This document shows positions 7,709 to 53,653 of a DNA stretch of 60,625 nucleotides, one piece after another. The position numbers were made by a program, and so were the translations under genes. The stretch comes from a virus: positions 1 through 60,625 of IMG/VR virus record IMGVR_UViG_3300048996_000177; one strand, written 5' to 3'. Below the pieces are notes generated by a model. It saw nothing but the letters and a program-made list of their open reading frames with translations. It had not been told where the DNA came from and did not search any database. Numbering within the stretch: position 1 is the first letter of the stretch; each line of letters opens with the position of its first letter.

Positions 7709-8239
7709 ATGATGCCCGTTACACGTGGTGGACGTGTGAAGTCGAATAACCCGAATGCTGTACGGCAAAGAATCCGTAATGCAAAAGGTAATTTGAACGA
7801 AGATATTGAAGCATTGTATGGAAAGCCATTATCAGAATGGGATTTCCAGGAATTGCAGTGTGGCAAGCCCCGCAACAAAGACGGCAAGGTTTCCCGAAAG
7901 GGAAAGAAACCGAAATGGATTTCTCCGGCAATGGCACAGGAAGCCATGCGCCGGTTGGCGTCCATGACGTCGGAAGAGGTTGGCAAATACGCCGGTGAAG
8001 CTGTCGCCACGATGGTGGATCTGATGCAGAATGCCAACGTCGAGATCGTTCGATTCCAGGCCGCACAATACGTGTTGAATCAGATCATGGGTATGCCAAC
8101 GATTCGTACCGAAGGCACCGTAGATGTGAATGTCCACGCATTCCTGGCGGACGTAATCCGCAACCCGGATGGTGTGGAACACCCTGTCATTGAAGGCACG
8201 TACACGGTCGAGGAAGAAGAAGACGATGACGACGAATGA
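7709..8239 (+). CDS. Putative terminase small subunit
   Basis: 176 residues from ATG 7709, after GAAAGGGGG. It is called from position (first gene of the packaging operon, just before the large terminase) and build: basic N-terminal DNA-contacting part, helical centre (MAQEAMRRLASMTSEEVGKY and onward), acidic tail. The AQYVLNQIMGMP stretch recalls phage small terminases. Direct homology is not certain; it could be another DNA-packaging accessory protein. Confidence 0.55.
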   Translation: MMPVTRGGRVKSNNPNAVRQRIRNAKGNLNEDIEALYGKPLSEWDFQELQCGKPRNKDGKVSRKGKKPKWISPAMAQEAMRRLASMTSEEVGKYAGEAVATMVDLMQNANVEIVRFQAAQYVLNQIMGMPTIRTEGTVDVNVHAFLADVIRNPDGVEHPVIEGTYTVEEEEDDDDE

Positions 8240-8429
8240 CGATGGGCAAACACCTCCGCCGGTGACCGAAGGAATGGCCGCCGACCCCAAGTTCAAGATT
8301 GGGCAAACGGTAACCGTGGCAGAATCCACGTGGAAGGCAACGATCATCGGATATGACATGATTCTCGTTCCGAACGTTCGGTATGACGACGGGTCGACTG
8401 ACCACGTGCTGGAACGGGATCTGTCGTGA
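8226..8429 (+). CDS. Small KOW/SH3-like protein, unknown
   Basis: 67 residues, overlapping the previous gene. The core FKIGQTVTVAE ... YDDGSTDHVLERDL looks like a small beta-barrel (SH3/KOW type). Function unknown. Confidence 0.6.
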   Translation: MTTNDDGQTPPPVTEGMAADPKFKIGQTVTVAESTWKATIIGYDMILVPNVRYDDGSTDHVLERDLS

Positions 8430-8716
8430 GTGACCAATCATCCGTGTGTACGACATGCGGCAACACGGCGGAATGGCACCGGATTAACAACCCGCGTCAC
8501 CGGTTCTCGGCGGTCAATGATGGCCTGAATACGTTCGCACCGGAGGATTCCACACCGGACAGTCGGGTTGTGCCCATGACGATGCCGTTCGATCCCGTAC
8601 TGCGCATGGCGTTGATTGACAAGGGTGTTATCACCGTCGCCGATCTGGACGCGGCGGACGCGAAAATCAAACACCTGACGGGTGGGTTGACTGATGGTAG
8701 AACGGAAACGCGTTAA
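8426..8716 (+). CDS. Small protein with CxxC motif, unknown
   Basis: 96 residues, GTG start overlapping the previous stop (GTGA). CTTCG near residue 8 followed by H and HR may bind zinc. The C-terminal half is helical. Confidence 0.6.
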   Translation: MSDQSSVCTTCGNTAEWHRINNPRHRFSAVNDGLNTFAPEDSTPDSRVVPMTMPFDPVLRMALIDKGVITVADLDAADAKIKHLTGGLTDGRTETR

Positions 8717-8942
8717 TGGCCGGGATCAATACGGCAACCTGACATCCAGTGCCAAGATCGAATCGGGCACCGAATACGGCGGTGTGGACGGCGTGATTCA
8801 GCCGCCCCCGCATGTGGCGAATTCCCGGGAAATGCTGATGCAGGTTTACCAAACCGATCCGGCAGCCGGGGCAATCAAATACCTGGATGGGCACACGGAT
8901 GCTGAGCATCAGCCCATTCCGGAGACCAAGAAAATCGTTTAG
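8694..8942 (+). CDS. Small protein, unknown
   Basis: 82 residues, starts inside the end of the previous gene. Polar, no clear fold. Lies directly upstream of the large terminase. Confidence 0.6.
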   Translation: MVERKRVNGRDQYGNLTSSAKIESGTEYGGVDGVIQPPPHVANSREMLMQVYQTDPAAGAIKYLDGHTDAEHQPIPETKKIV

Positions 8943-11915: not shown

Positions 11916-12034
11916 TGGCACGCGCAGTAGCGGCGACGGGTAAACGGCTTCCGTCGTCCAAAGCCAAGCCCCGATGGGATTCGTCGAACGCGTTTATCAA
12001 CCCGGGCCGCCCGATCCCACGTAAGCCATATTGA
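11915..12034 (+). CDS. 39-aa basic peptide
   Basis: Starts on the last base of the previous stop and ends on the first base of the next start. Basic, with RPIPRKPY at the end. The precise one-base junctions on both sides support a real gene. Confidence 0.55.
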   Translation: MARAVAATGKRLPSSKAKPRWDSSNAFINPGRPIPRKPY

Positions 12035-12957
12035 TGGGACGCCGTATTCTGTCGGCCGCAACGAAAGCGAAAATCTCCGCATCGTTGAAAGGCAATAAGA
12101 ACGCGTACAGCGGTGGTCCCAAACGGGTCAACAAACCCCGGAAGCCGTTGTCCACACGGCAAAAGGTCGCGAATATCAACGCAGCGGCCAAGAAAAAGAA
12201 AATGACGTTGTCGCCCGACCAGATCGAGCGCCGACGAAAAGTCGCGCAGCGATTGCGTGGCATCGCCCGACAGGAAGAAGCGGGAATTTCCCCCGCCCAT
12301 TCCAAGCCCATTCCGAAACCGAATCGTCCAGATCCGGCGGATACCGAACGCGAGGAAATTCGTGTTCGTGTCCGGGGTCAGATTAAGGGCGCGACGGTAA
12401 AGAACAACAAGGGTCCCATGCATCTGGGGTCCGGGGATCAGTTCAACAACGGCGTCAAACAGCCCAAGTCCGGCACCAATTCGAAAGCCAAGAAGGTGGC
12501 CAAGAACAATTCGGGTAATACCGTGGTCGTCGGCAACAAGAATGGATCGACAACGGTTATCCACACCGACGCAAATACAACGGTGATCGTTAACCGGAGT
12601 AAGTCGGCCACGGTGGCTAAACCCAAAACCACGACTGGTGAAACCAGCGCCCAGTGGCGTCAACGGAATCCCGAGGTGGTAAGCGCGGCAGAACAGAAAG
12701 CCGCATCCCGGGCGAAGCCCCCGGCCGACCCGTTGGCCAAGCATGGCAATCCGAAGCCATTGCCCACGGCAAGTGCATTGCGGTCATTGAGCACTGATGA
12801 TTTGCAAGACCGGATTGCCAAGTCGACCAATGCATCGGAAACCAAGAAGTTGGTTAACGAGTTTAACCTTCGGATGGGCATCACGTACGAACCGATGAAA
12901 CGCCGTCCTCCACGGAATGCAACGAAGATTCCGAAGAAGCGGCGCACGACAAACTGA
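12034..12957 (+). CDS. Basic head-region protein with NUMOD3-like N-terminus
   Basis: 307 residues. The N-terminus ILSAATKAKISASLKGNKN matches the NUMOD3 DNA-binding motif usually attached to homing nucleases, but no nuclease domain follows. The middle contains GNTVVVGNKNGSTTVIH, a beta-rich Asn/Gly run resembling the motifs at about 0.6 and 5.75 kb. Very Lys/Arg/Pro-rich overall. It lies between portal and Mu F-like genes, so it may be an internal head protein. Confidence 0.65.
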   Translation: MGRRILSAATKAKISASLKGNKNAYSGGPKRVNKPRKPLSTRQKVANINAAAKKKKMTLSPDQIERRRKVAQRLRGIARQEEAGISPAHSKPIPKPNRPDPADTEREEIRVRVRGQIKGATVKNNKGPMHLGSGDQFNNGVKQPKSGTNSKAKKVAKNNSGNTVVVGNKNGSTTVIHTDANTTVIVNRSKSATVAKPKTTTGETSAQWRQRNPEVVSAAEQKAASRAKPPADPLAKHGNPKPLPTASALRSLSTDDLQDRIAKSTNASETKKLVNEFNLRMGITYEPMKRRPPRNATKIPKKRRTTN

Positions 12958-40491: not shown

Positions 40492-41997
40492 ATGAAATAC
40501 CGGTGGAAGACAAAACCGTATAAGCATCAGGTGCGCGCCGTTCGAACCTTGTTACGAAATGGGTTCGGCGGCGCGTTGTTGATGGAGCCTCGAACGGGCA
40601 AGACGAAAACGGCTATTGATTGGATGTCCATTCTGGCGCAACAAGGAAAGATTGATCGTGCGGTCGTCATGTGCCCTGCACGGGTCGTGGACGTGTGGGT
40701 GGATGAATTCCACCGGCATTCCCCGTTGAACGTCCACACGCACGTCTGGGACGCCAAAGCACGTAAATCCGCACCACTCCCTCGGGTGTCATCGGCGTAT
40801 GACCTCACGGTGATTATCGTGAACTACAACGCGTTTGCCACACCGGGCAAGCGGTTGACATCTGGCCGACGATCCAAAGCCAATGGGCGATTCAAGTTCC
40901 GGGCGGAAATCAACAAGTGGTTGAAAACTGGGAAAACCGGCGCGGCATGCGCGTTGGATGAAAGCCACAAGATCAAGAGTCCATCGGGTAAAGCGGCCAA
41001 CATGGTGGTGTCCATGGGAAAGATGTTCCCGTATCGCCTGTTAATGACCGGTACACCGGTGACAAAAGCCAAACGGATTCATGATCTGTACATGCAGTGG
41101 AAATTCTTGAACCCGACGCGGTTGGACAATCTGGGGTTGCACACGGTCGAGGACGTCAAGAATTTCACCGGGGTGTGGACAGACCGTAACGGATACAAAC
41201 AATGGCTCCGTGGACGTGATGAAAACCTGGGGAAGCTGACCCGGGCCATTCACCAGGATTCTTTCGCTGTCCGTAGATCAGAATGTTTCGATCTCCCCCC
41301 ACGGGACCTTCAACATATCTGGGTGGATTTGTCTCCAAAAACCGCACGGTTGTACGACAAGATCGCCACCGAAATGGTAGCGGAAATCGAGCATGCCAAG
41401 CGAACCCATACAGTCGAAGCGTCCATCAAATTGGTACAGGGATTGCGATTACGGCAGATCACCGGCGGCGTGGCAACCACCGATGAGGGTAAGCTCATCC
41501 GTGTCGGACGTGAGAAGTTAATCGCGTTGGAGGAGTTGCTGGACGAGATTATTGAGCATGATGAGAAAGTAGTCATCGCCGCACATTTCAAAGCTGATTT
41601 GAATAGCATTGCCAAATTGACCCGTAAGTTAAAGATGCCCACGTTTGAATTGCGCGGAGGCATCAAACGGGAAGAAGCGACGATGAACATCAAGCGGTTC
41701 AAGAATTTGGATGGGGCTGGGGCATTCGTCATGCAACCCCAGGCTGGTGCGTTGGGTATTGACCTGTCAACGTCCAGCCGGATTATTTGGTACAGCGTGA
41801 CGCCGTCGTGGGTGGACTGGACACAATGCAACGACAGGATTGCACTGTCCAAAGTGTCCACCACCGAGACGTACATCATGGCGCGCGGGACGATTGACAA
41901 GATTCAATACGACGCATTGCAAGACGACACTGATGTTGCGAAAATGATTACCGATCGGCCGGAACGAATTCTTCGCCGGACTCGAAAATTGCCTTAA
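40492..41997 (+). CDS. SNF2-type DNA helicase/translocase
   Basis: 501 residues. Superfamily 2 motifs in order: Q-like YKHQVRAV, Walker A MEPRTGKTKTA (about 32-42), DESHKIKS in place of DEAH (about 160), LMTGTPVTK (about 183), and late motifs GIDLSTSSR and QCNDRIAL (the Q-x2-G-R-x-x-R equivalent). The size and motifs fit phage SNF2-like proteins acting in replication or repair. Confidence 0.88.
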   Translation: MKYRWKTKPYKHQVRAVRTLLRNGFGGALLMEPRTGKTKTAIDWMSILAQQGKIDRAVVMCPARVVDVWVDEFHRHSPLNVHTHVWDAKARKSAPLPRVSSAYDLTVIIVNYNAFATPGKRLTSGRRSKANGRFKFRAEINKWLKTGKTGAACALDESHKIKSPSGKAANMVVSMGKMFPYRLLMTGTPVTKAKRIHDLYMQWKFLNPTRLDNLGLHTVEDVKNFTGVWTDRNGYKQWLRGRDENLGKLTRAIHQDSFAVRRSECFDLPPRDLQHIWVDLSPKTARLYDKIATEMVAEIEHAKRTHTVEASIKLVQGLRLRQITGGVATTDEGKLIRVGREKLIALEELLDEIIEHDEKVVIAAHFKADLNSIAKLTRKLKMPTFELRGGIKREEATMNIKRFKNLDGAGAFVMQPQAGALGIDLSTSSRIIWYSVTPSWVDWTQCNDRIALSKVSTTETYIMARGTIDKIQYDALQDDTDVAKMITDRPERILRRTRKLP

Positions 41998-42032: not shown

Positions 42033-42617
42033 ATGGAGGCGATTAAAATCATCATAGTTGAGGGACCGGATGGTGCAGGGAAAACAACCCTGATCAATAA
42101 AATGGTGCATACGCTCAACCTTCCGGTCCACGCACGGTCGGCCAATTCGGACGGGTCGGCCACCCAATCCACAGAAGGCAGTCGGGGGGCAAATTTATCG
42201 TTATGGGCGTACAACGACGTGACGACACAACTGAATCAGCCCACATCCATTTACGATCGGCATTGTCTGATCTCGGAGTTCGTTTATGGTCCAATTCTCC
42301 GGGCTCATGTGCCCGTCGAAATGACTGGACCGGCAACGAGGTTATTGATCCAGATGTTGGCGAAACAGGTGTTGGTGGTGTATTGCCGTCCCCCGAATGA
42401 AAACCTCGTCATCAACTGCCGGAAAACACCCCAGCCCATTCCACACCTGAATGACCAGAACAATGTGTTGAAGGTGGCCGCCGGTTATGACGCGTGGCGG
42501 GTGAATTGGATGGGTCAGTCCACAATGTTCGATTACACCAACCCGAACGACTTCGCGTCGGTCATGTCCGCGTGCCGCCTGCACATCGCCCATTTCGAGA
42601 ACATGAGGAAATCATGA
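42033..42617 (+). CDS. Thymidylate/deoxynucleoside monophosphate kinase-like protein
   Basis: 194 residues. P-loop VEGPDGAGKTTLI at about residues 9-21 and the DRH motif (YDRHCLISEFVYG at about 75-87) are those of thymidylate-kinase-like enzymes, which phosphorylate dNMPs. Next to MazG- and TS-like genes, it may accept an unusual dNMP, like T4 dNMP kinase. A TTG at 42024 is another possible start. Confidence 0.8.
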   Translation: MEAIKIIIVEGPDGAGKTTLINKMVHTLNLPVHARSANSDGSATQSTEGSRGANLSLWAYNDVTTQLNQPTSIYDRHCLISEFVYGPILRAHVPVEMTGPATRLLIQMLAKQVLVVYCRPPNENLVINCRKTPQPIPHLNDQNNVLKVAAGYDAWRVNWMGQSTMFDYTNPNDFASVMSACRLHIAHFENMRKS

Positions 42618-43141
42618 CGGTAGTTAGTTGCCCCAGTAATTGCAAGGTGTCGGCCCAGCATTTTCACAAGGATGGGAAAACTGTGTGGGGCAACCCACCA
42701 TATGAAGAATCCACCCTGGCGCGCGTGCAGCGGGAATCGGGGGAGTGGCGACAGATCGCATATCCGACCACGGCCACCCCGGAATTGCAAGCGTTGGGTA
42801 TGGCGGAAGAAGTGGGGGAGGTGTGTCACGCGGTGTTGAAAAACATCCAGCAAATTCGGGGGTACAACGGGGAAAAGACCATCGCGGAAGTGGGTGACGG
42901 GCTGGCCGACACAATCATCTACGCGTGTGGGGTGGCTACGGCATTCGGTATCGACCTGGACGCCGAATTGGCGCGGGTGTGGAACCACGTCCGGGATCGC
43001 AACATCACGCAAGGATCCATGGGCAGTGGCAATACCAAATGCCCCCGGTGTGAATCCCCGGAGTCGAAGTTGCATCCAGCGGTTCAATTCGAGGGTGAAG
43101 TTCAGCCGTGTCCCCACGAGTTTCACAAGTCCGCCGAATGA
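42614..43141 (+). CDS. MazG-fold nucleotide pyrophosphohydrolase
   Basis: 175 residues from ATG 42614 (ATGA overlap). Metal-binding motifs of the all-alpha NTP pyrophosphatases: MAEEVGEVCHA (about 66-76) and EVGDGLADTIIYA (about 95-107). A C-terminal CPRCESPESKLHP zinc-ribbon-like part is an unusual addition. Converts dNTPs to dNMPs; T4 dCTPase belongs to the same broad fold. Confidence 0.82.
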   Translation: MTVVSCPSNCKVSAQHFHKDGKTVWGNPPYEESTLARVQRESGEWRQIAYPTTATPELQALGMAEEVGEVCHAVLKNIQQIRGYNGEKTIAEVGDGLADTIIYACGVATAFGIDLDAELARVWNHVRDRNITQGSMGSGNTKCPRCESPESKLHPAVQFEGEVQPCPHEFHKSAE

Positions 43142-44079
43142 TCAACGCGCTGGGATTTGCCACGGCCAATGACGCACATGAAGGCATGTGCAACAAGCTG
43201 ATGTTTGGCGAGAAATGGGGACGAGATTACGACTGGTCGCAAGGGACCGAAGTCGGATTGCACAATGTCGTCATCGGTGCGGATCGGTTCGACTGGGAAT
43301 ACGATCTGAAACGGCTGTGGATGGCCAAGTCCCGGTGGAACATGATGGTGCGGCAATACCTGGACCCGGATGCGGTTGAGGATTGGTTTGCGAAGATCGA
43401 GGATCGATTGGTGGGTAAAGGACGTGGGATTGCTGTTCTACGCACCAAATTGGTGCAAGGCAAAGGAACCGGGCGCGGTGTGCGTCGCCGGTGGGGATCG
43501 TGCATGCTCTCCATGTCATATCGCACCAATCCCATTCCGACCATCACCCTTCATTCGAGGACCACGTATTTCGGGTATCTCGCGGCTATGGACATCACGG
43601 TTGCCCACGTCCTTGCTCGATACATTTCTACGATTGTCGGTATCGATCCGGCGGAAATGAATTTCGTCTGGAATCTGGAACTGGCGCAATTCCACGGGTT
43701 CCGGTCATTGGCGTGGCCGTTGGGTAACCCGGATATCCGTGAACAGATGGACGACGATGTCCACACCCACAAGACGTTTCCAGCTAAACCGCCAAAGGGC
43801 CAACTCCATCTCCCGGTTGCCGGTGGTTACCGAAAGGCGTTGGATGGATATGCACGCCTGATGAAATCGGACCTGGAAAACAAGCTGTATGGGGACGAGT
43901 CATTCTCATCATTCGCGCGGGTACGCCGCCGGTATCACGCTGAAGTTCATGGACCGGAATTCGCCGCACAATTTGAAGGTGGTACGCGTAACAAAGGGGG
44001 ACACAACATGTTCACCCCACTTCCACACCTCCATTCGTCCACATTGGACTTGACACCCATCGGATTTGAGGAATTATAG
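43138..44079 (+). CDS. Diverged thymidylate-synthase-fold protein 1
   Basis: 313 residues, ATGA-coupled to the MazG gene. The central part aligns by eye with ThyA from the catalytic cysteine (RRWGSCMLSMSY), through L-H-S-R (the phosphate-binding Arg) to AAMDITVAHVLA, where Asp replaces the Asn of FNI in ThyA. A later W-x-L-x2-AQFH resembles the ThyA end of the active site. Asp at this place is the mark of dCMP/CMP hydroxymethylases. Family assignment is my alignment and moderate. Confidence 0.6.
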   Translation: MINALGFATANDAHEGMCNKLMFGEKWGRDYDWSQGTEVGLHNVVIGADRFDWEYDLKRLWMAKSRWNMMVRQYLDPDAVEDWFAKIEDRLVGKGRGIAVLRTKLVQGKGTGRGVRRRWGSCMLSMSYRTNPIPTITLHSRTTYFGYLAAMDITVAHVLARYISTIVGIDPAEMNFVWNLELAQFHGFRSLAWPLGNPDIREQMDDDVHTHKTFPAKPPKGQLHLPVAGGYRKALDGYARLMKSDLENKLYGDESFSSFARVRRRYHAEVHGPEFAAQFEGGTRNKGGHNMFTPLPHLHSSTLDLTPIGFEEL

Positions 44080-44472
44080 ATGTCCAACGAATTGACCGAA
44101 GCCGAAGTTGGTAGAACGCTGCGTTTCGTCCAGCGCGGGATGACCAACGAAGAAATCGGCTTCCAGTTACACATCGGTACCACGGCAGTAAAAAACCGGC
44201 TGTCCAAGTTGATGGCCCGGTATGGGTGCCGCAATCGTACCGAACTGGTTCAAGCCGCGATGTCCCGTGGTTTGTTGTCGGACCCGACCATTACGGTGAA
44301 CACCGGTCGGCACAGCAACGGCCAGTATTTTGTCGTCGTGATCACGCCCGGCCGGGAAGACACCGTGGCCAGTTGGTGTTCCAAGGCCGATGCCGACATG
44401 TTGGCATGTGCATTGCGGGGATACCTCAATGCGTCCACCATCACCGATTGGCGGAAGGCACGGGGAAACTGA
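44080..44472 (+). CDS. LuxR-type helix-turn-helix protein
   Basis: 130 residues. The N-terminal 65 residues are a GerE/LuxR DNA-binding domain (LTEAEVGRTLRFVQRGMTNE, IGTTAVKNRLSKLM, GCRNRTELVQAAM). The C-terminal domain is unknown. It sits between the two TS-like genes without gaps, so it may control this group. Confidence 0.8.
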   Translation: MSNELTEAEVGRTLRFVQRGMTNEEIGFQLHIGTTAVKNRLSKLMARYGCRNRTELVQAAMSRGLLSDPTITVNTGRHSNGQYFVVVITPGREDTVASWCSKADADMLACALRGYLNASTITDWRKARGN

Positions 44473-44473
44473 A

Positions 44474-45409
44474 ATGTTCGCATTTTTCGGGGCCAACACT
44501 ATCATGGAACTGGAACCTAACGTCGGTGATTGGACCGAGCACATTGACCGACTGCGGAAAGCGTTGCGGGATGCGCCGCTGGTCGAACGCGGACGGGTAC
44601 ACGCACAGGATGTATCCAGCGACCCCTCATTTGGCACGTATGAGCTTGCCAACATCGTCGTGACATATCCGGTGCCGACATACGTTCGATCGTTACAGGC
44701 GCATATGAGCCCCAATTTGCCATGGGCCGAAGACCACTTTGCCGAACGGGTGGGTGGGGAGCCGTTGAACCCCGCACCCAGTGAAGCGTGGTGGCCGTAC
44801 AAAAAAGATGGCAATGCGGCGCACAAGGACGGCGAGAAATTCAGCCACACGTACCCGGAACGCATGTGGCCGACGACGGCTAACACCGGGTGGATGTGGG
44901 ATAACGACAATGGTTCCACGCCTGTCATGGAATTGGAATCCAGCGGTCAGGGATGGGTGTGGAAAGGAACAGACACCGTCGTTGATTTCCAGGCGGTGGG
45001 GTACAAGCGGGCCCGACGACACGGTATTCGATACGACTATGGTGATTTGAATGCAGTGGTTGATCTCCTATCCCGCGACATTCATACTCGTCAGGCGTAT
45101 CTACCCATTTGGTTCCCAGAAGATACAGGCGCAATTGAAGGTCAGCGTGTCCCATGTAGTTTGGGATACCACTTCATCAAACGTGGGAATCAGATTGATT
45201 GTCAATACTTCATGCGGTCATGCGACTTTTTCCGACATTACGTTGACGACGCATATATGGCTGCACGGCTCCTGCAATGGGTGGTACGCCACACCCGCGA
45301 GTCCAATCCACAACTGGTAAGGGATGGATTGTCAACGGGTAATCTGACGATGTTCATTTCCAACCTCCACGCTTTTGTCGGCGATGAATATCTGTTGAAC
45401 GGAGAATGA
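44474..45409 (+). CDS. Thymidylate-synthase-fold protein 2, dCMP hydroxymethylase-like
   Basis: 311 residues. Clear ThyA-type active site: RQAYLPIWFPED, catalytic RVPCSLGYHF (Cys at about 227), and exactly 20 residues later MRSCDFF, as in E. coli ThyA Cys146 to Arg166-Asp169. Counting on, the Asn177 place is Asp (HYVDDAYMA). In T4 dCMP hydroxymethylase this Asp selects cytosine. A separate ThyX makes dTMP here, so a modified-base role is likely. Confidence 0.75.
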   Translation: MFAFFGANTIMELEPNVGDWTEHIDRLRKALRDAPLVERGRVHAQDVSSDPSFGTYELANIVVTYPVPTYVRSLQAHMSPNLPWAEDHFAERVGGEPLNPAPSEAWWPYKKDGNAAHKDGEKFSHTYPERMWPTTANTGWMWDNDNGSTPVMELESSGQGWVWKGTDTVVDFQAVGYKRARRHGIRYDYGDLNAVVDLLSRDIHTRQAYLPIWFPEDTGAIEGQRVPCSLGYHFIKRGNQIDCQYFMRSCDFFRHYVDDAYMAARLLQWVVRHTRESNPQLVRDGLSTGNLTMFISNLHAFVGDEYLLNGE

Positions 45410-45675
45410 TGGATACTGAATCCGATCGGGAAGCTGAGGCGGAATTCCGTCCACACCTGACGAAGTATTTAGCGGCCACTGGACAGCTTCGGGACAACCA
45501 CTTGTTGATGCACTACGGTGTTCTTCACGTCGCCGTAGCGATGGATGCAGATGCCGAACACACCGTTGGATTTATCCCTGATTCCGACTGGCCATACGCA
45601 TATCAATTGGGAGCGTTACAATACGCGCTTACGGTCCACAAGGGACAGATCGTTCGAGATGGTGATGAACTTTGA
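45406..45675 (+). CDS. Small protein, unknown
   Basis: 89 residues, ATGA overlap with the TS-like gene and TTGA overlap with the deaminase. No motif recognised; conserved coupling suggests a role with its neighbours. Confidence 0.6.
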   Translation: MMDTESDREAEAEFRPHLTKYLAATGQLRDNHLLMHYGVLHVAVAMDADAEHTVGFIPDSDWPYAYQLGALQYALTVHKGQIVRDGDEL

Positions 45676-46094
45676 CCAGAACCAGTCGGGACCAGATGTT
45701 GATGGATATGGCGTTCATCGTGGCCGCGCGTGGTACATGTTCGCGGTTGCAGGTGGGCGCTGTGGTGTCCATGGACGGCCGTGTGTTGTCATCGGGGTAC
45801 AACGGCGCACCGGCGGGTTTCGACCACTGTATGCACAGTCCAGCCCAAGATATGCCGTGCACGCAAGCGGTTCACGCAGAAGCCAATGCGATCGTGTTCG
45901 CCGCACGGCACGGTGTGGCAACCGGCGAAGCTATTCTCCACACCACACATCTGCCGTGTCCCGCATGCGCCCGGTTAATCATCAATGCGGGGATCCGCGT
46001 GGTGACATGGCAAGAACCATTTCGGAATGATTTTGGACTGGAACTATTAGAACGTGGAGGAGTTGAGTGGTATCAGCACCCCAGAACCGGATAA
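45672..46094 (+). CDS. Deoxycytidylate deaminase
   Basis: 140 residues. Zinc-dependent cytidine/dCMP deaminase: QVGAVVSMDGRVLSSGYNG, the catalytic HAEANAI (His, Glu) and PCPACARLI (two Cys ligands). Converts dCMP to dUMP, the substrate of ThyX. TTG 45672 overlaps the previous stop; ATG 45696 is an alternative but would cut into the fold. Confidence 0.92.
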   Translation: MTRTSRDQMLMDMAFIVAARGTCSRLQVGAVVSMDGRVLSSGYNGAPAGFDHCMHSPAQDMPCTQAVHAEANAIVFAARHGVATGEAILHTTHLPCPACARLIINAGIRVVTWQEPFRNDFGLELLERGGVEWYQHPRTG

Positions 46095-46453: not shown

Positions 46454-46557
46454 TGACCGAAACGGTGGTTCGTGAATTTCTGTTCGGATTGGGCGGAATT
46501 GCTATTGGTGTGATTCTCGGCTGCGTCATCTTGTGGGTTTGTTTCGGAAGGAAATGA
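46453..46557 (+). CDS. 34-aa membrane micropeptide 3
   Basis: Shares one base with peptide 2. MTETVVREF then a Gly/Ile/Val-rich membrane segment (about 11-31). The matching N-terminus suggests that peptides 2 and 3 arose by duplication. Confidence 0.6.
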   Translation: MTETVVREFLFGLGGIAIGVILGCVILWVCFGRK

Positions 46558-46562
46558 TAAAT

Positions 46563-49130
46563 ATGTCGGTGGGAAACCCCCGGATTGAGTTGGCAGTCCG
46601 CAATGCCGCGTGTACCGCGTGCAAGATGTATGTACAAGCCGATGGTGCAGATAGATGTGTGACGGCGAGCGGAAATTCAAAAGCCGATATTCTGGTGGTT
46701 TCCAAATCACCGTTGGGTGAACGAGGCAAAAAAGAGATCGTCACGTATTTGCAGCGGGCTGGTTTTGACTTGAACCAGTTCGCGTTCACCGGTGCGATCA
46801 AGTGTTTGGTGTGGGATCTAATCCCCGGCCGTAATGATTTGAAAGCATGCAAGGATTATTTGGACGCGGAGATTGAATTCATCCGTCCCAAATGGATTCT
46901 GGCGTTGGGTAACGAAGCGTTGTCATCCACGGCGGGCAAGTCCGGGATCATGAAACATCGAGCGGCGGTGTACACCCGCAAAGACGGCGTCAAAGTGATG
47001 GCTACCGTATCTCCCGCATCGGTGTACCGCAACCCCGGCCAGAAATCCGGGTTCGAGGCGGATCTGGAATACTTCAAACGGCTGACCGATGGTACCCAAG
47101 CTGATTTGAATCTCGAACCCACACCCGATCAATACCACGTGGTCGATGACAAAGAATCCATTCGCCAGATGATTTGGCGGTTGGAAAACGCCATGGCGGT
47201 GTCGTACGACATCGAGTCGAACGGGTTCGATGAATTCAAACCTGAATCACGAATGGTATCGTTGGCGGCAACCATCGAGTGGACCGATCCCAAGACCGCA
47301 CAGACGTTTTTAGACGTGTTTGCGGTGCCATTGTGGCATCCCGAATCGGTATGGCGGACGTCGTGGAAACGCGTGCTAGCAATCCTTGCGCCGTACCTGG
47401 TCAAGGTGAAACATCGCATTGCCCACAATGGCAAGTTTGACGGCCGGTGGATGCATGAATTCGGCATCGCCATTGACGAGACGTTCGACACGATGTTGGC
47501 TCTGCATCTGTTGGATGAAAACCGCCCCAAAGGATTGAAACCCGCAGCCCGCGTGATGCTGGGTGTGGAGCCATGGGCGATCGACACGAAGGATTTGGCA
47601 TCCACACCCATCGTGGAAGTGTTGTGGTACAACGCCTTGGACACGTGGTATACGTTCGGGTTGCGCAACATTCTTCGTGAACAGTTGTTGGAAAAGCCCC
47701 GGTTGGCCAAGCTATTCCAGCACATCATCATGCCCGCCTCGAACACGTTGGTTCACGTGGAACGCCGTGGGGTGTGGACAGACAAAGCCAAGCTCATGAA
47801 ACATTGGGCGATCGCACAGTCCGAATTGGAACGGGTCGATACTCAACTTCGTGCATGGGTGCCGGGAGACCACCCGTTCAAGAAGATCAAGAAACGTCGT
47901 GGCGGAGCGGTTGAGGTTATTGACGGCATTAACTTCAATCCGTCGAATTTTGCTCGGTGGTTTTTGTTTGATCATTTGGAAATGCCAATCATGGAACGGG
48001 GTAAGGACAAGCCGGATGGTTCTCCCGGTGACCCGTCAATGAAAGAATCCGTGTTGTTGGATTTGCAGGAACAGACCAACCACGAAGTCATCAACCTGAT
48101 GTTGGAACGGACGAAGTGGGAAAAATACACGTCGTCATTCTTCTCCGCATACGCCGAGCAAATTGGGGACGATGACCGAATCCACACCACATTTAAACTG
48201 ACGGGGACAGTAACAGGTAGATTGTCATCGGGCAAAGGTGACGAGGAGAAGGTTACGGCGAAGGTCCAGAACCGTGGTGTGAATATGCAACAGGTGCCGC
48301 GTGACGCATTCGTGCGTGGTATCTTCGGTGCGCCACCATCGTGGTATTTCGTGGAATTCGACTTCTCGCAAATTGAGTTGCGAGTGGCTGCATTCCTCGC
48401 TGGTGAACGAAATATGCTCCATTTGTACGCCAACGGAATCGACATTCACATGGCGATGGCCATGCGGATGACCGGCAAACCGGCCAGCGCCGTCACAAAG
48501 GAAGAACGTAAAAAGGCCAAGGCCGTGAACTTCGGATTCTTGTATGGGATGGGGTGGCGCAAATTCATCTCGACTGCATGGTCGACATACGGTGTGCGTG
48601 TTACCGAAGAGGAAGCCAAGGCATTCCGCAAAACATTCTTCGATGAATTCCCGTTGCTCATGAAATGGCATGCCGCGCAACGGCGCATTGCCCACAAACA
48701 CGGGTTCGTGTCTTCGCCGCTTGGTCGCGTGCGACACCTCCCGGACATCCACTCCCGTGACAAGGGTGTGGCCGCCGAAGCCGAACGTCAGGCCATCAAT
48801 TCACCGGTCCAGTCGTTCGCGTCGGATATGGCGTTGTGGTCGATGGTCATCGTGGATCGCAAGTTCAAGAAAATGGGATTGCAAGCCCGTGCGATCGGTA
48901 CCGTGCATGATGCGGTGAACTATGAAATCCCCAAGGAAGAATTGGCTGTGGCGTTGCCGATCATCAAGGACGTCATGGAGAATTTGCCGTTGCAAGAGGT
49001 ATTCGGCATTGACCTGACGGTACCGATCGTGGCCGATTGCAAGGTTGGCACACGCTGGGGTGGCGCGACGGAAATCAGCCCCGAGTCCGTATACGATTGG
49101 GACGATTCGTTGTTGGCGACGATTGGATGA
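46563..49130 (+). CDS. Family A DNA polymerase with N-terminal Fe-S UDG-like domain
   Basis: 855 residues. Residues 1-180 match family 4 uracil-DNA glycosylases: four cluster cysteines (17, 20, 81, 96) and IEFIRPKWILALGNEAL are kept. The two catalytic motifs differ, SKSPLG for GEAPG and SPA for HPA. Residues about 200-370 are a 3'-5' exonuclease (DIESNG at 216). The polymerase follows, with FDFSQIELR at about 600 and VHDAV at about 783. ATG 46563 fits GGAAGGA; ATG 46554 is possible. Confidence 0.92.
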   Translation: MSVGNPRIELAVRNAACTACKMYVQADGADRCVTASGNSKADILVVSKSPLGERGKKEIVTYLQRAGFDLNQFAFTGAIKCLVWDLIPGRNDLKACKDYLDAEIEFIRPKWILALGNEALSSTAGKSGIMKHRAAVYTRKDGVKVMATVSPASVYRNPGQKSGFEADLEYFKRLTDGTQADLNLEPTPDQYHVVDDKESIRQMIWRLENAMAVSYDIESNGFDEFKPESRMVSLAATIEWTDPKTAQTFLDVFAVPLWHPESVWRTSWKRVLAILAPYLVKVKHRIAHNGKFDGRWMHEFGIAIDETFDTMLALHLLDENRPKGLKPAARVMLGVEPWAIDTKDLASTPIVEVLWYNALDTWYTFGLRNILREQLLEKPRLAKLFQHIIMPASNTLVHVERRGVWTDKAKLMKHWAIAQSELERVDTQLRAWVPGDHPFKKIKKRRGGAVEVIDGINFNPSNFARWFLFDHLEMPIMERGKDKPDGSPGDPSMKESVLLDLQEQTNHEVINLMLERTKWEKYTSSFFSAYAEQIGDDDRIHTTFKLTGTVTGRLSSGKGDEEKVTAKVQNRGVNMQQVPRDAFVRGIFGAPPSWYFVEFDFSQIELRVAAFLAGERNMLHLYANGIDIHMAMAMRMTGKPASAVTKEERKKAKAVNFGFLYGMGWRKFISTAWSTYGVRVTEEEAKAFRKTFFDEFPLLMKWHAAQRRIAHKHGFVSSPLGRVRHLPDIHSRDKGVAAEAERQAINSPVQSFASDMALWSMVIVDRKFKKMGLQARAIGTVHDAVNYEIPKEELAVALPIIKDVMENLPLQEVFGIDLTVPIVADCKVGTRWGGATEISPESVYDWDDSLLATIG

Positions 49131-49599: not shown

Positions 49600-50645
49600 C
49601 GGCGCTTTACGTGACGGATGAAGGTCAGTCCGTCGTCACACATTCAATGATCAAGTCCGCCCGCGACTGCATGAATATGACCAAGTACAAATACGCGGAA
49701 CGGTTGAAACCGAAATCCGAACAGGGTCCGTTGAAACGCGGGAAGTGGATCCACGCGTTGTTGGAAGTTCATTATACCGGCGGGGATTGGCGAGACGAAC
49801 ACAAGAAATGGGTCAAGCAATACAAGTCGTTGTTCGAAGAAGAACAGGACAAGTTGGGGCCATTACCCGAGATGATTGAACAGATCATGCGTGGGTATTT
49901 TTGGCATTACAAGAACGATGAAGATTGGATCGTTCATGAAACAGAATTCACCGTTGAGGCGGAATTCCCCGACGGTACCTTATACCGTGGACGGGTGGAC
50001 AACCTGGTTGAAACCCGATATGGGCTCTACCTTGTTGATCACAAGTCACACAATTACCTGCCCGGATCCACACATCGGTTGCTTGACGCACAGTCGGTGC
50101 TTTACATCTGGGCCGCCCGAAAGATGAGGATTCCCGTCAAGGGGTTCATCTGGAATTACATTCGTGCGAAGCCGCAGGCCAAATGGCGTTTCAAGCAGAA
50201 TGGAGAATTGTACGCCAACATCGGCGAGACGGATTTCCCCACAGCCGTGGCATCGTTGAAAGCGGCCGGGAAAAATTACAAGGATCCACAGTGGCGTGAT
50301 CGGTTGTTGGCATTGCAGAAGATGCGGTACAAAAAGGACGCCATACAGATGTCCCCATTTTTCCGGCGCGAGACGTTGGAAAAAGACAACGACTTGATCC
50401 GGGAAATCCTCGCGTCGGCGATCCGCACAGCCAACACGTTGAACACCTACGATTTCGACGCGCCGGGTGTGGAACGGAATCCCGGTCGTAGGTGTGAATG
50501 GGGGTGCTCGTACACCAATCTGTGCACAACTGAATTGTTGGGGGGTAATGCCGATATGGTGCGGAAACGTGAGTTTAAAATCGGTGACCCCATGGCGTAT
50601 TACCAGGATTCAAAAGACGAAGGCGGGGAGGATCGTTTTGGGTAA
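49584..50645 (+). CDS. Cas4/RecB-type exonuclease with Fe-S site
   Basis: 353 residues of the PD-(D/E)xK superfamily: GKWIHALLE, HETEFTVE, GRVDNLVE ... YLVDHKSHN, then QSVLYIWA. One Cys near the N-terminus (RDCMN) and three near the end (CEWGCSYTNLC) match the four Fe-S ligands of Cas4/AddB-like nucleases. No CRISPR genes are near, so it is likely a recombination or repair exonuclease. Confidence 0.85.
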   Translation: MASFVTALYVTDEGQSVVTHSMIKSARDCMNMTKYKYAERLKPKSEQGPLKRGKWIHALLEVHYTGGDWRDEHKKWVKQYKSLFEEEQDKLGPLPEMIEQIMRGYFWHYKNDEDWIVHETEFTVEAEFPDGTLYRGRVDNLVETRYGLYLVDHKSHNYLPGSTHRLLDAQSVLYIWAARKMRIPVKGFIWNYIRAKPQAKWRFKQNGELYANIGETDFPTAVASLKAAGKNYKDPQWRDRLLALQKMRYKKDAIQMSPFFRRETLEKDNDLIREILASAIRTANTLNTYDFDAPGVERNPGRRCEWGCSYTNLCTTELLGGNADMVRKREFKIGDPMAYYQDSKDEGGEDRFG

Positions 50646-50973
50646 CATGCGTTGTCGGTCAGTATCCGAAATGACCGCCCGGTCCATCGCCAATTTCTGG
50701 TCCCATGTGGACAAGACCGACGAGTGTTGGTTGTGGACGGCTTCAGTTTTTGTTGCAAATGGATACGGGCAATTCAAAGGTGGCCCGTCCACACGGGCAC
50801 ATCGGGTTGCGTGGGAATTGGTTAAGGGCCCATGTCCCAAACCTCCATTGGAGCCGAACCACAAATGCCGTGTGCGACGATGTGTCAACCCGGATCACAT
50901 CGAATGGGTAACCCATAAGGAAAATTTGGAATACGCGAACAGGGTACGAAACGAACTGGGACAATACGTTTAG
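50638..50973 (+). CDS. HNH endonuclease, free-standing
   Basis: 111 residues from TTG 50638, which follows GGGGAGG; ATG 50647 is an alternative. Motifs of the HNH_3 type: CWLWTA, GYGQFK, RAHRVAWEL, and PNHKCRVRRCVNPDHI. Such genes often spread as homing endonucleases between replication genes, and it interrupts an otherwise tightly coupled order here. Confidence 0.85.
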   Translation: MGNMRCRSVSEMTARSIANFWSHVDKTDECWLWTASVFVANGYGQFKGGPSTRAHRVAWELVKGPCPKPPLEPNHKCRVRRCVNPDHIEWVTHKENLEYANRVRNELGQYV

Positions 50974-50998: not shown

Positions 50999-51235
50999 AT
51001 GAGCCAACAGTATTTGATCGTGGCCGTCATCGAAGTAGATGAGCCGCAACTGTCCAACATCGTTGCCGCGTCGTCATATGTCGAACGATTGCTCATGGGC
51101 GACGGCACGATCATCAATCGGTGCAAGGTGATCGCAACTGATGAAACAGCCGGGAAGGTGATTTCGTGGGGGGAGAATGACGACCGCATATTCACTGCCA
51201 ATCCGATTCTCCCCGAAATGGGGTACAACACCTGA
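50999..51235 (+). CDS. Small protein, unknown
   Basis: 78 residues, RBS AAAGAAG. Beta-rich start (YLIVAVIEVDEPQLSN). Shares one base with the thyX start. Confidence 0.6.
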   Translation: MSQQYLIVAVIEVDEPQLSNIVAASSYVERLLMGDGTIINRCKVIATDETAGKVISWGENDDRIFTANPILPEMGYNT

Positions 51236-52014
51236 TGGATGTCACCCTGGTTGCCCACACCGTCCTGTCCGAAGATATTACGAGCACCCACATCAGCAGC
51301 GCCATCGAACGATGGATGGCCCCGGTGGATGGTAAAACCCGGTCTATCGCGGACTACGATTATGACGCGGATGTGTTGGCCGAGTTCGCCGGACGTTCGT
51401 GTTATCAGTCGTTCAACCGGCCGAATCCGAAGACTGCCGCCAACAATGATTACCTGGCACACATTCTCGAATCGGCGCACGAATCGGTTCTGGAACACGC
51501 GTCGGCTACGTTCTACGTGACGGGTGTGTCGCGGTCACTCACGCATGAATTGATCCGTCACCGGCACTTGTCATATTCCGAGTTGTCCCAACGGTTCGTG
51601 GACATCGCACCGTCCAAAGAGAACAAGGCCGGTATGGCGTGGATCGTGCCATCCGGGTTAAACGTGACCGACGACCATGAAGTCATCCGGCCCATCACGG
51701 CGGTGCTGAACGACATCGTAACGCCCCTTTACCGGTCGATGGTGGAATCGTTGATGAGTCGTGGGAAAACGCGTAAGGAAGCGCGTCAGGCCGCGCGTGC
51801 CGTCATGCCGAACATGATGGAAACCAGAATTGTCGTCACGGGCAACATGCGGGCGTGGCGGGATGTGATCAAGAAGCGATACCACGTGGCGGCAGACGCG
51901 GAAATTCGGGAGTTTGCAAAGATCGTTTTGAATGAATTACGATCGATTGCGCCGAACACATTCCAGGATATGCCACACGAGCCATTCGGTTCGATGGAAA
52001 AGGGAAAGGGGTGA
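51235..52014 (+). CDS. thyX: Flavin-dependent thymidylate synthase
   Basis: 259 residues. The ThyX signature RHRHLSYSELSQRF (RHR-x2-S-x2-x-S-x-R type) at about 102-115, plus HASATFYVTG and NMRAWRDVI. Makes dTMP from dUMP with FAD and folate. Its presence makes the two TS-fold proteins upstream redundant for thymidine synthesis. Confidence 0.95.
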   Translation: MDVTLVAHTVLSEDITSTHISSAIERWMAPVDGKTRSIADYDYDADVLAEFAGRSCYQSFNRPNPKTAANNDYLAHILESAHESVLEHASATFYVTGVSRSLTHELIRHRHLSYSELSQRFVDIAPSKENKAGMAWIVPSGLNVTDDHEVIRPITAVLNDIVTPLYRSMVESLMSRGKTRKEARQAARAVMPNMMETRIVVTGNMRAWRDVIKKRYHVAADAEIREFAKIVLNELRSIAPNTFQDMPHEPFGSMEKGKG

Positions 52015-52885: not shown

Positions 52886-53653
52886 ATGGCATCAGAGTTG
52901 AAGCGCGCCAAAGCCAAGGTCATGGACATGACCGACGTCAAGGAACGCGGTCCGTTCAACCCGGTCCGACAGGAATCCGGGGATTACCTGGCGAAGATCG
53001 TCGACGTGTTCGAAACCGACAGCAAGGCGGGTGACCCGATGTGGGTTTTCGCCGTGCAACTGGACGAGCAGAAGTCGGCCGTATACCCGATGTACTGCCT
53101 GTTGAACCCGGACAACTTCTGGAAGATCCGAATGATGTGCGTGGCCACAGGAATGGCCATTCCGAAGAAGCGCATCAAAATCGAACCGGCCAAGCTGATC
53201 GGAAAGATGATCGGCATTTCGTTGGAAGACGACGAATACGACGGCAAAATGAAGTCCGTCATCGACAAGGCATTCCCCAAGTCCGAACTGGGCGGGAAGG
53301 CCGACGACGAAGACATCGACGATGATGACGTTGATGACGAGGATGAAGACGACGACGAGCCGGAACCGCCCAAGAAGTCGAAAAAGGCACCGGCCAAGAA
53401 ATCGAAGAAAAAGGCCGCTCCTGTCGAGGAAGATGACGACGAGGATGAGGACGAAGAAGACGACGATGAGGATGACGAGGACGAAGAGGAAGAAGTCCCC
53501 GTCAAGAAAAAGGCCGCCGGAAAAAAGGTGAAGGGATCGACCAAGGTTCCCGCCAAAAAGGCCAAGGCCAAAAAGAAGGCCAAGGTCGAAGACGACGACG
53601 ATGACGATGTGGATGACGACGACCTCGATGAACTCGACGTTGACGACATTTAA
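52886..53653 (+). CDS. Single-strand-binding-like protein with long charged tail
   Basis: 255 residues. The first 130 residues fit the DUF669-like, SSB-type proteins that partner phage Sak4 ATPases. The second half is an unusually long tail of Asp/Glu blocks and Lys blocks (PAKKSKK), ending in acidic LDELDVDDI like SSB tips that recruit partners. The tail resembles the arms of the protein at 33.6 kb. RBS AAGGGAG. Confidence 0.75.
   Translation: MASELKRAKAKVMDMTDVKERGPFNPVRQESGDYLAKIVDVFETDSKAGDPMWVFAVQLDEQKSAVYPMYCLLNPDNFWKIRMMCVATGMAIPKKRIKIEPAKLIGKMIGISLEDDEYDGKMKSVIDKAFPKSELGGKADDEDIDDDDVDDEDEDDDEPEPPKKSKKAPAKKSKKKAAPVEEDDDEDEDEEDDDEDDEDEEEEVPVKKKAAGKKVKGSTKVPAKKAKAKKKAKVEDDDDDDVDDDDLDELDVDDI

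Follow-up and report, generated by a model that had tools for sequence, protein, structure and literature searches.

In the thymidylate synthase (TS) superfamily, an aspartate at the place of ThyA Asn177 marks the dCMP hydroxymethylase of phage T4 and related enzymes, and T4 uses a dCTPase, a dNMP kinase and a dCMP deaminase alongside this hydroxymethylase. Gene sets of this kind are already known from metagenomic DNA. The MetaGPA study (eLife 2021) tied TS domains with Asp177, PRA-PH, dCMP deaminase and MafB19-type deaminase domains, which co-occur, to modified-cytosine contigs and found that residue 147 also separates modified from unmodified contigs (PMC8670742). Here we describe a cassette at positions 42033–46094 of a virus of bacteria, IMG/VR virus record IMGVR_UViG_3300048996_000177 (positions 1–60,625, hereafter the window; 60,625 nt). 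It resembles the T4 hmC pathway, in which a pyrophosphatase (gp56), a dNMP kinase (gp1) and a dCMP deaminase (Cd) accompany gp42; unlike in T4, the genes stand in one run with that of the DNA polymerase PolA, an extra paralogue (TS1) is present and no glucosyltransferase was found. With the MetaGPA contigs it shares TS-Asp177, PRA-PH, dCMP deaminase and MafB19-type domains together with a changed position 147, and window proteins match all four corresponding Pfam families, that for TS slightly below the cut-off. Carbamoyltransferases are frequent on those contigs, whereas none was found among the window ORFs scanned, and the accessible text of that paper yielded no mention of a TS1-like partner (PMC8670742). 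New are this partner and the reach of the cassette into well-studied actinophages.

A first-pass annotation of the window had placed a dNMP-kinase-like protein, a MazG-fold protein, two TS-fold proteins and a dCMP deaminase within 4 kb, with ThyX about 5 kb further on. These genes were all recovered, each with a family or fold match, and all cassette genes are intact plus strand ORFs (Table 1). For TS2, an overlapping start at 44390 was rejected. The HTH gene was found in only one of 75 compared loci, that of the window, and the small protein downstream of TS2 had no homologue in the other compared loci carrying both TS1 and TS2.

Table 1. Genes of the cassette and linked genes in the window.
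Feature	Position	Strand	Match
P-loop dNMP kinase (predicted)	42033–42617	+	phrog_761 'thymidylate kinase' E 3e-15
MazG/PRA-PH-fold all-alpha NTP pyrophosphohydrolase	42614–43141	+	PF01503 22.1 bits (cut-off 21.3); MazG E 1e-3
TS1, second TS-fold protein	43108–44079	+	phrog_13667 (function unassigned); AlphaFold and Foldseek
LuxR/GerE-type HTH protein, between TS1 and TS2	44080–44472	+	PF00196 E 3e-7
TS2, predicted dCMP C5-modifying enzyme (hydroxymethylase type)	44474–45409	+	phrog_160 E 6e-27; Pfam TS just under cut-off
Small protein without assigned function, 3' of TS2	45406–45675	+	no Pfam or PHROG family match
dCMP deaminase	45672–46094	+	PF00383 E 5e-20; PF14437 E 4e-13; phrog_174 E 6e-46
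Family A DNA polymerase (PolA), N-terminal uracil-DNA-glycosylase (UDG) domain	46533–49130	+	PF00476 E 4e-79; PF03167 E 9e-9
ThyX flavin-dependent thymidylate synthase	51235–52014	+	PF02511 E 2e-45

TS2 was aligned with ThyA, T4 gp42, RB69 ORF048c, SPO1 gp29, M6 gp58 and 77 TS2 homologues. The alignment pairs C228 (45155–45157) with ThyA C146, R248 (45215–45217) with R166, D251 with D169, D259 (45248–45250) with N177 and H299 with H207. The equivalents of Cys146 and Arg166 are kept in 77/77 homologues, and all 77 carry Asp at the 177 position, as do T4 gp42 and RB69 ORF048c, while ThyA, SPO1 gp29 and M6 gp58 have Asn. At position 147 every TS2 has Thr or Ser, T4 gp42 and RB69 Thr, ThyA His and the SPO1 and M6 proteins Asn; TS2 thus lacks the Asn177 and His147 of the dUMP enzyme ThyA. 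The SPO1 and M6 proteins likewise belong to the TS superfamily and to a phage base-modification setting, but their Asn177 and Asn147 make them dUMP type, unlike TS2, for which a role as dUMP hydroxymethylase was ruled out. By sequence, TS2 is closest in PDB to enzymes acting on cytidylates and to an engineered TS: profile searches gave MilA (E 1.6e-7), Lactobacillus casei TS N229D (E 2e-5) and T4 dCMP hydroxymethylase (E 2e-4). MilA (PDB 5jnh, 5b6d) differs in being a CMP hydroxymethylase; it acts on a ribonucleotide and belongs to an antibiotic pathway in Streptomyces.

T4 gp42 and TS2 are only 15–18% identical, yet Cys148, Arg168, Asp171, Asp179 and the Thr at the 147 place of gp42 all have counterparts in TS2. 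A difference concerns the ThyA-143 position, which is Asp in T4 gp42 (Asp145), SPO1 gp29 and M6 gp58 and Arg in all 77 TS2 sequences. As the D145N variant of gp42 is impaired (PMC6400193), hydroxymethyl chemistry is not assured by this comparison, and TS2 is therefore classed as working like a gp42-type hydroxymethylase rather than as one. Judged from the residues, Asp177 would select dCMP while leaving hydroxymethylation, hydroxylation and methylation undistinguished.

TS1 has no Pfam match, and neither phmmer, hmmsearch against PDB nor hhalign against TS2 identified it as a TS by sequence; hhalign against a mixed TS profile gave a weak match in the same register as our residue assignment. 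Its AlphaFold model (pLDDT 93, pTM 0.91) was matched by Foldseek best to MilA (E 2.7e-7, probability 1.00) and also to the phage dCMP hydroxylase 9iqu (E 1e-6), and the TS2 model (pLDDT 84) to the TS fold with E 8e-10. Both proteins are thus predicted to adopt the TS superfamily fold, the matches resting on models with TM-scores of 0.3–0.6. In TS1, C132 (43501–43503), R151 (43558–43560) and D162 (43591–43593) correspond to ThyA C146, R166 and N177 with the TS spacing of 11 from Arg to Asp, and these three residues, Y84, G130 and F186 are invariant in 58/58 homologues. The same C/R/D set occurs in proteobacterial-phage copies, including the more distant ones of Serbin and PMBT14. Position 147 is Met, Leu or Ile, so that TS1 too departs from ThyA at both 177 and 147. 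The catalytic Cys noted at first pass in both proteins, and the Asp that residue counting had put at the Asn177 place, are therefore universal in the two families. Neither finding that would have contradicted the first-pass reading, an Asn at this site or a missing TS fold, was made. A counterpart of the catalytic ThyA Glu58 was not placeable by alignment in either protein.

The order kinase–MazG–TS1–TS2–deaminase–PolA was found in 66 of 75 distinct TS1+TS2 loci, and among the tracked genes TS1 lies directly 5' of TS2 in 74 of them; such conservation argues that the grouping is not due to chance. The kinase holds the same place in nearly all of these loci and PolA regularly follows the deaminase. 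The pyrophosphohydrolase position is annotated as dUTPase in many phages, and the Serbin protein matches PF08761 (dUTPase_2). Fusion of UDG to PolA also occurs in Huwbert, Zuko, Serbin and PMBT14 and was not detected in Tolls, NoShow and Muddy. The order is kept in actinobacterial as well as proteobacterial phages (Gordonia, Mycobacterium, Streptomyces, Microbacterium, Serratia and Pseudomonas), and about 100 records of isolated, sequenced phages contain the gene set, Gordonia cluster CT and, from Mycobacterium, Muddy and FF47 among them; its usual label is 'thymine synthesis' or 'hypothetical'. A bacterial origin was rejected: a scan of 84,980 genomes gave four contigs, all from metagenome-assembled genomes, and three of these carry TS1 together with further genes of the cassette.

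With TS-Asp177 clustered with a pyrophosphohydrolase, a dNMP kinase and a dCMP deaminase, the segment is probably a cassette for cytosine modification at the nucleotide stage, its product most likely being 5-hydroxymethyl-dCMP and TS1 partnering TS2. We infer the following route. The MazG-type enzyme would convert dCTP and dUTP to dCMP and dUMP, the role of T4 gp56. In TS2, Cys228 would attack C6 and Asp259 protonate N3 of cytosine while C5 receives a C1 unit or oxygen. The kinase would raise the modified dCMP to the diphosphate, as T4 gp1 does, and the linked PolA would incorporate the modified dCTP, whereas leftover unmodified dCMP may be deaminated to dUMP for ThyX, the supplier of dTMP. 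Presumably, the phage would thereby evade host restriction and further defences directed at DNA. The T4-like reading of the first-pass annotation, here taken as modification of dCMP at C5 ahead of incorporation, is thus supported as a prediction by Asp177, Thr/Ser147, the TS fold, ThyX or ThyA beside TS2 and the published domain link (PMC8670742). Counting against it are the Arg at ThyA-143, the RB69-like Phe209 and C-terminus of TS2, the unplaced Glu58 and the lack, among the larger window ORFs scanned, of a glycosyl- or carbamoyltransferase for the modified base, frequent if not universal in such cassettes. Our literature search found no published nucleoside data for the DNA of any TS1-bearing phage.

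Production of 5-hydroxycytosine, with TS2 or TS1 acting as a flavin-dependent dCMP hydroxylase rather than a folate-dependent hydroxymethylase, is unlikely, though not negligible. The 5-hydroxy-dCMP synthases belong to the TS superfamily (PMC13390438), and that of RB69 and Mosigvirus (ORF048c/AfhB, PDB 9iqc/9iqu) shares with the cassette the TS fold, a PCT motif, Asp177 and a kinase gene nearby, and with TS2 also Thr147, Phe209 and a very short C-terminus. Among the top Foldseek matches of TS1, 9iqu reached a target-normalised TM of 0.59 against 0.43 for T4 dCMP hydroxymethylase (6l18), and the folate-binding Asp169 is replaced by Tyr or Glu in nearly all TS1. However, Asp169 is kept in 75/77 TS2, whereas RB69 has Asn, and the RB69 enzyme has other neighbours, including sugar-handling genes, of which none was found in the window.

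In the favoured hydroxymethyl-dCMP pathway, TS1 would be a divergent TS paralogue working with TS2, either forming a complex with it as a subunit or, as a second enzyme, itself modifying cytidylates at C5. Tentatively, and against our own leaning, the pair could form a heterodimer whose two active sites differ, or catalyse two consecutive C5 reactions, and so build a cytosine beyond the known single-enzyme pathways that fills the DNA of many actinophages so far read as unmodified. A non-catalytic TS1 that only stabilises TS2, as scaffold or regulator, would be compatible with the pathway and seems rather improbable. In its favour, TS1 always came together with TS2, contig ends aside, whereas 21 records carry only TS2; in addition, Gln/His stand in for the sugar-binding His207/Tyr209 in most TS1, and the Serbin copy has lost this pair. 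Yet a mere scaffold would not need the invariant Cys132, Arg151 and Asp162, kept even in the distant copies.

Xp12-like synthesis of 5-methyl-dCMP, in which N177D turns a normal TS into a dCMP methylase, is very unlikely. TS mutants N177D/N229D methylate dCMP, as cited in PMC8670742, and TS2 lacks the Asp143 of the three hydroxymethylases compared; against this, TS2 ends shortly past the His207 motif without the last part of ThyA, and its positions 147 and 165 go with T4 and RB69, not ThyA. Equally doubtful is ordinary pyrimidine salvage merely raising the dTTP pool, as this operon is interpreted in the paper on Gordonia phage Azira ('thymine synthesis'); annotations as dUTPase, deaminase, TMP kinase and TS suit a dTTP route (PMC10353413). 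ThyX and canonical ThyA are indeed both absent from many cassette phages, but every TS2 combines Asp177 with Thr/Ser147, and TS1 would be left unexplained. Moreover, ThyX is present in the window and 10 of 24 related records and canonical ThyA accompanies TS2 in five of seven large TS2-only records, directly adjoining it in Huwbert (with Asn177), so that TS2 is unneeded there as thymidylate synthase. Scans met no genes of a deazaguanine or 2-aminoadenine pathway, nor was a hypermodifying transferase among the window ORFs scanned.

Should the DNA of cassette phages hold modified cytosine, this would bear on their restriction resistance and on the modified-base-dependent defences of mycobacteria. 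Muddy has been used in therapy, and its engineering and therapeutic use would be concerned as well. About 100 cassette records are annotated as making thymine, and the phages exist in laboratory collections. TS1 would add a new branch to a long-known enzyme fold.

The first-pass annotation had placed an aspartate at the position of E. coli ThyA Asn177 in TS2, and this was borne out by an alignment of 77 TS2 sequences with E. coli ThyA, T4 gp42, M6 gp58 and SPO1 gp29: residue 177 (ThyA numbering) is Asp and residue 147 Thr or Ser in 77/77. The corresponding pair is Asp/Thr in T4 gp42 and in RB69 ORF048c, Asn/His in ThyA, and Asn/Asn in SPO1 gp29 and M6 gp58. In T4 gp42 it is Asp179 that recognises cytosine and protonates it; the substitution D179N almost abolishes activity (PMC6400193). 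According to MetaGPA, a survey of modified-cytosine contigs, positions 177 and 147 are the two best separators of thymidylate synthases (TS) of modified-cytosine from those of unmodified contigs (PMC8670742). In the PDB, the best profile matches of TS2 were MilA and the L. casei TS engineered to carry N229D.

The gene set proposed for this region (kinase, MazG, two TS-fold proteins, deaminase and ThyX) proved real by Pfam and PHROGs, with AlphaFold/Foldseek added for TS1, and the six-frame ORF list contains intact plus-strand ORFs at each place. The LuxR/GerE-type gene wedged between TS1 and TS2 was found in no other compared locus. The SNF2-type helicase lies directly upstream of the kinase, and actinophage versions have an annotated helicase near the same place.

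Genes of the cassette and other genes discussed
Feature	Position	Strand	Match
NUMOD3-motif protein, near portal gene	12031-12957
SNF2-type helicase	40492-41997
P-loop kinase	42033-42617	+	phrog_761, E 3e-15
MazG/PRA-PH protein	42614-43141	+	PF01503 above cut-off
TS1	43108-44079	+	phrog_13667, function unknown
LuxR/GerE-type HTH	44080-44472
TS2, TS-like	44474-45409	+	phrog_160, E 6e-27
dCMP deaminase	45672-46094	+	E 5e-20
PolA	46533-49130	+
HNH endonuclease, between nuclease and ThyX genes	50467-50973
ThyX	51235-52014	+	E 2e-45
Protein with very acidic, lysine-rich repeats in second half	52886-53653		phrog_14876 'DNA polymerase', phrog_3724

In T4, a pyrophosphatase empties the dCTP pool, a TS-type enzyme modifies dCMP, kinases form the triphosphate and a deaminase provides dUMP. 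By analogy, the cassette may follow the same steps, with substrates and product likewise predicted. The T4-like modified-pyrimidine pathway suggested earlier is supported, as a prediction, by Asp177 and Thr/Ser147 in all TS2 sequences. The first choice for the putative product would be hmC, because 75/77 TS2 sequences retain Asp169, which in TS faces folate. Two features of TS2 count against hmC, namely Arg at the place of ThyA-143, which is Asp in T4, SPO1 and M6, and a C-terminal end resembling the 5-hydroxy-dCMP synthase of RB69.

TS1 is not demonstrable as a TS by sequence alone, because phmmer, a PDB search with a 58-sequence profile and a profile-to-profile comparison with TS2 gave no matches; a Pfam search of the window ORFs gave none either. 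Structure prediction and comparison, the proposed check on TS1, did find a TS fold. For the AlphaFold model, built from an alignment of 58 viral homologues (mean pLDDT 93, pTM 0.91), the best 50 Foldseek matches listed from the PDB all belong to the TS superfamily, with MilA at the top (E 2.7e-7), phage dCMP hydroxylase 9iqu next (E 1e-6; target TM 0.59) and thymidylate synthases after. The TM-scores are modest, mostly 0.3-0.6, which makes TS1, as modelled, a divergent member of the superfamily. Six alignment columns are invariant, among them C132, R151 and D162, which correspond to C146, R166 and N177 of ThyA; the catalytic Cys and the Asp at 177 claimed for TS1 are both present. The R-to-D spacing is 11 in every aligned sequence, identical to that in TS. 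When the TS1 profile was compared with that of a small TS set, the three residues fell into register, at a probability of 1.7% that is non-significant by itself. All three are also kept in TS1 of Serbin and PMBT14 (proteobacterial phages) and of Manatee Spring phage. Since position 169 is mostly Tyr (Glu in these three) and positions 207/209 mostly Gln/His, TS1 is unlikely to be an ordinary folate enzyme. Two public records name its homologues 'pyrimidine hmase synthase'; no publication on TS1 was found in the open-licence literature searched.

The order kinase-MazG-TS1-TS2-deaminase-PolA recurs in Gordonia Tolls, Microbacterium Huwbert, Streptomyces Zuko, Mycobacterium NoShow and Muddy, Serratia Serbin and Pseudomonas PMBT14, in some phages with small additional genes. 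In Muddy (KF024728), TS1 is gp47 and, like the gene at the deaminase place, is labelled hypothetical; TS2 is gp46, labelled thymidylate synthase. PMC6884629 mentions a QueC-like protein in this phage. TS1 homologues occur in 85 actinophage records, and the Serbin query yielded 18 records, mostly of proteobacterial phages; TS2 homologues occur in 113. TS1 accompanies TS2 in 75/96 distinct TS2 loci. In 66 of these 75 all six genes stand in order; most of the others show part of this order, and some are truncated at a contig end. One contig, L097, carries two TS2-like genes (2-1824, 7944-8756), one adjoining TS1 and the other about 6 kb off.

No TS1 match was found in 21 TS2-only records of up to 219 kb, so TS2 can do without TS1; TS1 without TS2 was seen only at a contig end. 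ThyX is present in 10/24 TS1+TS2 records tested and in 0/21 TS2-only records, and canonical ThyA in 5/7 TS2-only records tested; in Huwbert it adjoins TS2. TS2-only contigs L071, L085, L092, L101, L104-L107, L113 and L119, several with a separate canonical ThyA, probably represent an additional group of phages with modified cytosine.

PolA of the window carries an N-terminal uracil-DNA-glycosylase (UDG) domain, as in Huwbert, Zuko, Serbin and PMBT14 (records L002, L003, L125, L126); none was detected on PolA of Tolls, NoShow and Muddy. Such a domain on a replicative polymerase next to a dCMP deaminase suggests uracil policing. The HNH and NUMOD3-motif proteins are likely homing endonucleases.

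For Gordonia phage Azira, this operon was published as 'thymine synthesis' (PMC10353413), a reading that Asp177 speaks against. No publication on modified cytosine in actinophages was found in the open-licence literature searched. Cytosine modification of the kind predicted here is already known from T4, RB69 and the MetaGPA contigs; the Pfam families TS, PRA-PH, PF00383 and PF14437, matched in the window, are also those named by MetaGPA. Against this known kind, TS1 is what is new in the cassette.
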